From Phreatobacter sp. (lineage in GTDB: Bacteria; Pseudomonadota; Alphaproteobacteria; Rhizobiales; Phreatobacteraceae), in assembly GCA_019749835.1 (NCBI GenBank), contig JAIEPJ010000036.1:27923-91922 (forward strand): DNA of 64,000 nucleotides. Direction: 5' to 3'. Below are positions 44,187 to 46,232 of the stretch, piece after piece. The position numbers and the translations under genes were made by a program. The notes beneath the pieces are model-generated. The model had not been told where the DNA came from, did not search any database, and saw nothing but the letters and a program-made list of their open reading frames with translations. Each line of letters begins with the position of its first letter. The first letter of the stretch is position 1.

Positions 44187-46232
44187 ATGGGCGATCAAGC
44201 CGGCAGAAGACAGTCGGGTCCCCGGTGCATTGCGCTGGTGGGCCCGTTCCAGAGCGGCAAGACCACCTTGCTGGAGGCGGTGCTGGAGCGCACGGGTGCC
44301 ATCGCGCGGATGGGATCCACCGAGAATGGCACCACGGTCTCGGATTCCAGCGCGGAATCCCGCCAGTTCAAGATGAGTGTCGAGGCTGGGTTCGCCACGA
44401 CCACCTTCATGGGGGACGACTACACCTTCGTCGATTGTCCCGGATCCGTCGATTTTCTCCACGAGATGCGGGCGGTCTGTCCGGCCGTCGACGCCGCCAT
44501 CGTCGTCTGCGAGGCGGACGAGAAGAAGGTGCCGGCCCTCGGGCTGATCCTGCGCGAACTCGAAGAGCGTGGCATTCCCCGCATTCTTTTCATCAACAAG
44601 ATCGACAAGGCCAGCCGCCGTCTGCGCGAGACGCTTGAACTGCTGCGGCCCGCCTCGCGGGTTCCGCTGCTCTTGCGCCAGATCCCGATCTGGTCGAACG
44701 GCATCGTCTCAGGCTTCGTCGACCTCGCCCTCGAGCGGGCGTTCGTCTACCGCGAGCACGCGGCGTCCCAGGTCATCCCGTTGCACGGGGCTGACCTCGA
44801 GAGGGAGAAGGAAGCCCGCTTCACCATGCTCGAGACGCTGGCCGACCATGACGACGCCTTGATGGAAACGCTCCTGTCGGACCTCGAGCCGCCGCGGGAC
44901 CGCATCTTCGACGATCTGGGCCGGGAACTCGCCGCCGGTCTCATCGTCCCGGTGCTGTTCGGGTCGGCGCTCCAGACCCACGGCGTGCTGCGTCTTCTCA
45001 AGTCGCTCCGCCACGACGTCCCGCCGGTCGCGGCCGCGGCTGCGCGCCTCGGCCTGCCCCCGGGCGAGACGATGGCACAGGTGATGAAGACCATCCATAC
45101 CGCCCATGGCGGCAAGATCTCGGTTGCCCGCGTGCTCTCCGGAACCCTTTCGGAAGGCGCCGTGCTGACCGGGATCGCCGGAACGCCGGAGCGGACGTCC
45201 GGCCTGTTTCGCCTCTTTGGCCCTGGCGTCGAGAAGCGCCGCGAGGCGCAGGCTGGTGAGACCGTGGCACTCGGCAAGCTCGACCATGTCGCGACCGGCG
45301 AGACGATCACAGCGGGTCGCGCGCCGCCGGTGCCGCTGGCGACGATCGCGTCGCCGCAGCCGGTTCTGTCCATCGCCCTGTCGGCGCATGACCGCAAGGA
45401 CGATGTCCGCCTCGGTCTCGCCCTGGGCAAGATCTGCGACGAGGACCCCTCGCTCACCGTCAGTCATGGAGGAGACGCCGGCGATATCGTTCTGGCGGGG
45501 CAGGGGGAGATGCAACTGCGCGTTGCCGTTGCCAAGCTGGCGAACCGCCATGGCGTGCGCGTCGACCAGGCGCGCCCGGCGATCGGCTATCGCGAGACGA
45601 TCAAGAAGGCCGTCGCGGGGGTGCGCGGCCGCCACCGCAAGCAGTCCGGCGGCCACGGCCAGTTCGGCGATGTCGTCATCGCGGTGAAGCCCCTTCCGCG
45701 CGGCGCCGGTTTCCTGTTCGACGAGACGATCGCCGGCGGCGTGGTGCCGCGACACTATGTGCCGGCCGTACGGGACGGCGTGGCCGAAGGCCTGCGCAAG
45801 GGGCCGCTCGGCTTCCCGGTCGTCGACATTGCGGTGACCCTGACCGACGGCAGCTATCATACCGTCGACAGTTCCGACATGGCGTTCCAGCAGGCGGGAC
45901 GGATCGCCATCCACGAGGCGCTCGGAGCCTGCCAACCGGTGCTGCTGGAGCCGATCCATCGGGTCGCGGTGGCGGTGCCTTCGGAGGCCACGGCGCGGAT
46001 CAACGCCATCGTTTCGGCCCGGCGCGGCCAGATCCTCGGCTTCGACAGCCGCGAACATTGGCCGGGATGGGACGTGGTCTCCGTCCTGCTGCCGGAGGCC
46101 GAGATCGGTGACCTGATCATCGATATCCGCTCGGCCACTGCGGGAGTCGGCTCGTTCACCGCAACTTTCGATCACCTTGCGGAACTGACCGGGCGTGAGG
46201 CGGAGCGGGTCGTTCAGAGCCGGGCCGCCTGA
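44187..46232 (+). CDS. Elongation factor G-like GTPase (divergent)
   Basis: GPFQSGKTTLLE, DCPGSVDF, NKID; EF-G domain IV (SGGHGQFGDVVIAVKPL, DGSYHTVDSSDMAFQQAGRIAIHEA) and domain V. Confidence 0.9.
   Translation: MGDQAGRRQSGPRCIALVGPFQSGKTTLLEAVLERTGAIARMGSTENGTTVSDSSAESRQFKMSVEAGFATTTFMGDDYTFVDCPGSVDFLHEMRAVCPAVDAAIVVCEADEKKVPALGLILRELEERGIPRILFINKIDKASRRLRETLELLRPASRVPLLLRQIPIWSNGIVSGFVDLALERAFVYREHAASQVIPLHGADLEREKEARFTMLETLADHDDALMETLLSDLEPPRDRIFDDLGRELAAGLIVPVLFGSALQTHGVLRLLKSLRHDVPPVAAAAARLGLPPGETMAQVMKTIHTAHGGKISVARVLSGTLSEGAVLTGIAGTPERTSGLFRLFGPGVEKRREAQAGETVALGKLDHVATGETITAGRAPPVPLATIASPQPVLSIALSAHDRKDDVRLGLALGKICDEDPSLTVSHGGDAGDIVLAGQGEMQLRVAVAKLANRHGVRVDQARPAIGYRETIKKAVAGVRGRHRKQSGGHGQFGDVVIAVKPLPRGAGFLFDETIAGGVVPRHYVPAVRDGVAEGLRKGPLGFPVVDIAVTLTDGSYHTVDSSDMAFQQAGRIAIHEALGACQPVLLEPIHRVAVAVPSEATARINAIVSARRGQILGFDSREHWPGWDVVSVLLPEAEIGDLIIDIRSATAGVGSFTATFDHLAELTGREAERVVQSRAA

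Follow-up and report, generated by a model that had tools for sequence, protein, structure and literature searches.

The window, a 64,000-nucleotide stretch of Phreatobacter sp. DNA, encodes an EF-G paralogue that belongs to the alphaproteobacterial branch of the EFG II subfamily (NF009379; PRK12740.1-3), and the GTPase-activating histidine of the G3 motif is lost throughout this branch. We gathered 168 alphaproteobacterial EFG II proteins from the window and from order, class and GTDB scans; position 87 is Ser in 158 of them, Ala in five, Phe in two and Asn, Gly or Thr in one each, and none has His. The family-wide loss (168/168) is what the present analysis adds to the published description of the subfamily.

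The reading frame starts with ATG at 44187, with GAGGGG about 12 bases upstream, and runs to TGA (46230–46232) without an internal stop; the ORF tool had placed the start at TTG 44127, upstream in the same frame. All five EF-G domains were found with Pfam (GTP_EFTU, EF-G_D2, EFG_III, EFG_IV and EFG_C). An AlphaFold model made with the window protein and 29 relatives as input had a mean pLDDT of 85.7, and its best PDB match was Thermus thermophilus EF-G-2 (1wdt; E 5e-64, TM 0.86/0.89, 34% identity); next came structures of EF-G, both ribosome-bound and free. The EF-G domain layout claimed in the first-pass annotation is thus retained, and the P-loop, NKID and domain IV tip motifs that it listed were each found in place (Table 1). 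The Ser87 codon is TCC (44445–44447), and residues 57–68 of switch I read ESRQFKMSVEAG.

Table 1. Features of the EFG II-type gene and its product in the window
Feature	Position	Strand	Basis
EFG II-type EF-G paralogue, 681 aa, alphaproteobacterial branch (NF009379)	44187..46232	+	NCBIfam; Pfam domains I–V; tree
G1/P-loop GPFQSGKTT, residues 19–27	44241..44267	+	Column table; relative to AHIDAGKT of EF-G, the monovalent-cation Asp and the hydrophobic-gate Ile are changed
Switch I/G2 DSSAESRQFKMSVEAG, replacing the RGITI region	44343..44390	+	Alignment; EFG II hallmark in the main text of PMC3150367
Ser64 at the Mg2+-ligand position of switch I	44376	+	Alignment
G3 DCPGSVDF, residues 83–90; Ser87 for the GTPase-activating His	44433..44456	+	Alignment
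G4 NKID, residues 137–140, guanine-specificity motif intact	44595..44606	+	Column table
Domain IV loop I, basic GRHRKQSGGHGQFGD	45627..45671	+	Order alignment
Domain IV tip DGSYHTVDSS, residues 554–563	45846..45875	+	Near-identical to canonical translocases; aligned to Thermus EF-G

The window protein scored 971 bits against NCBIfam NF009379 (cut-off 513) and stayed under the cut-offs of the models for canonical EF-G (TIGR00484, 384 vs 659), mycobacterial EF-G2 (NF009377, 408 vs 890), Bacteroides EF-G2 (NF058620, 304 vs 1000), Tet proteins (tet_protect, 230 vs 775) and BipA (88 vs 757). A Tet(M)-like or BipA identity was rejected on these scores. The NF009379 cut-off alone is unspecific, as many canonical EF-G of the class Alphaproteobacteria pass it with up to 547 bits, whereas the margin of the window protein is specific. 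NF009379 is classed as an "equivalog" and carries the plain product name "elongation factor G"; owing to this name and the loose cut-off, annotation does not set the paralogue apart from EF-G.

The phylogeny proposed as a check in the first-pass annotation placed the window protein in a branch separate from EFG I. In this unrooted tree of 71 proteins, built by a quick method with SH-aLRT support only, all EFG I sequences lie on one side of a branch with support of 100, and a branch with support of 97 divides EFG I plus two PGY-type sequences from all other EFG II; the alphaproteobacterial EFG II and a rhizobial type are grouped with support of 100.

EFG II was defined by Margus, Remm and Tenson in 2011, with the loss of RGITI as the published hallmark. 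According to the main text of that paper (PMC3150367), RGITI in G2 is replaced by xxxSx or (R/H)xM(S/G)V, the loop I region of domain IV is positively charged, and the subfamily includes an alpha-proteobacteria/Cyanobacteria sub-subgroup. As described there, this sub-subgroup shares with the window protein, besides the NF009379 match, the (R/H)xM(S/G)V type of G2 lacking RGITI, Gly for Ala in the P-loop and a basic loop I, and, like the relatives of the window protein, it occurs beside another EF-G in the genome. The window G2, FKMSV, departs from its motif in having Phe61 where R/H is expected, and nothing decisive differs. Gly19 (position 16 of Margus et al.) is present in all 148 non-redundant family members, as against Ala in 14 of the 14 canonical EF-G. 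The canonical signatures, DTPGH in G3 and RGITI in G2, are replaced by DCPGS and FKMSV. The first-pass remark that switch I lacks RGITI therefore stands, although a conserved family motif occupies the site and the hydroxyl at residue 64 is kept. The protein is not the oddity for which it was taken, since the family is widespread and the change in switch I was published in 2011 (PMC3150367).

The catalytic centre has been changed at several positions across the branch. The non-redundant set was obtained by dropping sequences at least 90% identical to others; it has Ser87 in 139 of its 148 members and His in none, whereas His is found in all 14 canonical EF-G (13 from alphaproteobacteria and one from Bacteroidales). 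The Ser-for-His reading of DCPGSVDF made at first pass was confirmed, and the substitution goes beyond chance. The P-loop gate Ile is replaced by Tyr or Phe in 128/148, the P-loop cation-site Asp by Leu, Gln, Gly or Ala, and the switch I Ile by Met in 137/148. The Mg2+-ligand Thr (residue 64) is Ser in 123/148 and Gly in 19/148 (about one in eight), the Gly64 variants agreeing with the R/HxMS/GV motif noted in 2011, and residue 61 is His in 77 and Arg in 61. No member departs from the P-loop Lys, 147/148 keep the G3 Asp, and NKxD occurs in nearly all. Ser87, Met63, Glu57 and Asp53 are invariant in a 30-member alignment of the order. In the other EFG II groups sampled, the G3 residue is Tyr in Thermus and M. 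smegmatis and Ser in Bacteroides, as read from PDB chains, and Tyr, Leu or Ser in beta- and gammaproteobacteria. In the main text of PMC3150367, G3 is called a conserved DxPG and histidine is nowhere mentioned; the loss of this residue as a subfamily trait may therefore not have been spelled out.

Two further EFG II types were observed in the scans. One clade of EFG II from a single Pseudomonadota family (f208; L198–L205) has Glu for the P-loop Lys (HEGAGETT) in all eight sampled members and DVPGS in G3; the binding or splitting of GTP is likely to be abnormal, yet the full-length frame is open. The rhizobial type falls inside the alphaproteobacterial branch, where its stem is very long, and has a GKST P-loop, a switch I shorter by about nine residues and DVPGNNE or DAPGPNE in G3, with copies on the Sinorhizobium fredii megaplasmid pSF45436b (L189) and at L187 (G023:C890).

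Bacteroides thetaiotaomicron EF-G2 (PDB 8dmf and 7uvp; NF058620) is also of the EFG II type, with DCPGS in G3 (IIDCPGSDDF), a lost RGITI (YGYSV) and Ser at the Mg2+-ligand position, but it lies on another EFG II branch, has GSSGSGKT as the P-loop and is 718 aa long against 681. The 7uvp chain bears the label "Tetracycline resistance protein TetQ"; it has the same sequence as 8dmf, which is titled B. thetaiotaomicron EF-G2, and its N-terminal 141 residues match NF058620 (EFG2_Bacteroid) best. The aligned fragment of the Bacteroides GTPase domain is only 28% identical to the window protein, and the shared DCPGS may therefore be convergent. T. thermophilus EF-G-2 (PDB 1wdt and 2dy1), the closest solved fold, likewise lacks the G3 His and RGITI, but it has Tyr instead of Ser (DAPGYGDF), keeps Thr as the Mg2+ ligand and is reported to have ribosome-dependent GTPase activity. 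Mycobacterial EF-G2 (PDB 9k0z; NF009377), for which no ribosome-dependent GTPase is reported, shares the EFG II type, the loss of the G3 His and QQRSV in G2, and differs in having Tyr for Ser (DTPGY), another branch and a domain II insert. Canonical EF-G (EFG I, fusA) has the five-domain layout, the domain IV tip, the P-loop Lys and NKxD in common with the window protein; however, it is only about 31% identical, and all sampled EFG I have RGITI and the G3 His.

Comparison with a congener orthologue (86% identity) gave a dN of 0.083, a dS of 0.61 and a ratio of 0.14, values that show purifying selection. Of the 12 genus members, 11 carry the gene; the exception is a complete genome (G065), which keeps canonical EF-G, and the gene is dispensable within the genus. 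Roughly 87 of the 240 alphaproteobacterial genomes of the class scan, nearly all larger than 2 Mb, carry the gene, which usually accompanies fusA. As to the presence of fusA and tuf elsewhere in the genome, a further check named at first pass, rpsG, fusA and tuf were not found in the organism's own draft genome (G000, 85% complete). The str operon is present in congeners, and its absence from the draft is best read as an assembly gap rather than a biological absence. Because congeners such as G019 carry both the EFG II gene and a separate canonical fusA, we rejected the possibility that the window protein is the housekeeping EF-G of its organism. Together with its EFG II membership and the complete congener without the gene, this bears out the first-pass view of a specialised paralogue rather than the housekeeping translocase. 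The same draft contains a 301-aa ORF (L213:1743-2648, G000:C192) that covers only EF-G's C-terminal half (Pfam EFG_III and EFG_C), has no GTPase domain and is flanked by apparent gmk and rsmA genes; comparable short frames occur in the congener G338 and in G037.

Within the genus the gene order msrP-DMT-methyltransferase-GSDH-EFGII-ybjN-proC-tetR-csaA-ilvE is kept. In Hyphomicrobiales the surroundings vary, with aminotransferase, DUF992, trxB, Lrp and msrP genes as frequent neighbours, and no functional link to translation elongation was found among the neighbours in either group. The gene looks monocistronic; a promoter scan found no promoter, and terminator matches were at shuffle level only. 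A plasmid search yielded only distant relatives, chiefly Tet proteins.

The consequences of losing the histidine are documented in E. coli EF-G. The H91A variant hydrolyses GTP on the ribosome at 28 per s instead of 202 per s, sevenfold slower (about 14% kept), and its main defect is the release of Pi, at 0.32 instead of 28 per s, a nearly 90-fold decrease; H91Q shows normal hydrolysis, and intrinsic GTPase activity is unchanged in H91 mutants (PMC4532990). EF-G with H92A retains repeated translocation, but its binding lasts tens of seconds (PMC12775393). On these data, Ser87 alone would predict mainly slow Pi release and turnover and not a dead enzyme. Natural EFG II relatives are mutually inconsistent on GTPase activity. 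M. smegmatis EF-G2 lacks ribosome-dependent GTPase and Thermus EF-G2 has it (PMC3832671), although the summary of that study in the main text of PMC3150367 differs; as described in these sources, the Thermus protein, with Tyr, has ribosome-dependent GTPase activity and is partly active in poly(Phe) synthesis (PMC3150367, PMC3832671). Bacteroides EF-G2 is cited as having no GTPase activity and enabling GTP-independent translation (PMC10294740, PMC12775393, PMC6989115), and its gene is cited as induced 238-fold on carbon limitation (PMC10294740, PMC6989115).

We propose that the window protein would bind GTP and, with its translocase domain IV intact, dock at the A site of the ribosome. The catalytic centre appears to have been rebuilt as a unit, with the P-loop Ile and Asp replaced, RGITI giving way to the (R/H)xM(S/G)V type and the switch II His to Ser, and we propose that ribosome-stimulated GTP hydrolysis and/or phosphate release would therefore be strongly lowered. 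A strong reduction of the ribosome-coupled GTPase is what we expect with good confidence. The slow or ribosome-uncoupled hydrolysis suggested at first pass is a reasonable inference, and homology makes it plausible that the protein is a specialised factor whose ribosome-coupled GTPase is weak. By analogy with Bacteroides EF-G2, which has the same DCPGS motif, the window protein could act beside the housekeeping EF-G as a conditional translocase during slow growth or energy shortage. This full reading, a conditional low-turnover translocase, is the one we favour, with moderate confidence.

An alternative reading is an ordinary GTP-hydrolysing translocation factor in which Ser or Tyr replaces His in a rebuilt pocket with other chemistry. 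The reported activity of Thermus EF-G2 (DAPGYGDF), the unchanged intrinsic GTPase of E. coli H91 mutants, the normal hydrolysis of H91Q (PMC4532990) and the retained P-loop Lys, G3 Asp and G4 all agree with it. We nevertheless regard it as rather unlikely, as the M. smegmatis and Bacteroides EFG II proteins are reported, in the sources cited above, to lack the activity, and as some 13% of the branch has Gly64, without the Mg2+-ligand hydroxyl, which is hard to square with normal catalysis. A role in ribosome recycling or splitting with RRF instead of translocation, as for mitochondrial or Borrelia EF-G2, in which recycling is separated from translocation, is also unlikely, and slightly more so. 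A slow-hydrolysis factor could still split ribosomes by binding, and the main text of PMC3150367 documents a division of roles between EF-G paralogues for spdEFG/mtEFG; however, the window protein falls in EFG II and not in spdEFG2/mtEFG2, it retains a conserved domain IV tip and basic loop I, and Bacteroides EF-G2 is reported, in the sources cited, as a translocase.

That the protein is a ribosome-protection or stalled-ribosome factor, ejecting an A-site ligand much as Tet(M) or BipA would and not translocating, seems very improbable: it belongs to the same EF2 superfamily with a similar domain layout, and conditional paralogues of this type are common, yet the Tet and BipA models score far below NF009379 and the domain IV tip is of the translocase type. 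There is hardly any chance that the gene is a functionless, decaying fusA duplicate. Its loss from a complete congener and its patchy occurrence across the class would be expected of such a relic, but changes fall mostly at third codon positions (66/37/241), family-specific residues are invariant, and the gene is kept in nearly all genus members and about a third of the sampled alphaproteobacteria. The low dN/dS and the conservation across orders led us to reject a pseudogene.

EF-G is the textbook GTP-driven motor of the ribosome, and whether GTP hydrolysis drives its movement or only the release of the factor is still debated. A large alphaproteobacterial family with a rebuilt GTPase centre offers an independent system for this question, and it includes the exact G3 motif of one paralogue reported, in the sources cited, to translocate without hydrolysis. 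The first-pass interpretation is partly supported, and mostly implied already by the publications on EFG II and Bacteroides EF-G2. More tentatively, loss of the G3 His may be a hallmark of the whole of EFG II, which might then represent a widespread second mode of translation in alphaproteobacteria, Bacteroides and others, moving tRNA with little or no GTP hydrolysis for use when energy is short, with some branches having gone on to lose the P-loop Lys or a portion of switch I. The value of the finding lies in the family-wide pattern and in the ready set of testable orthologues that it provides.
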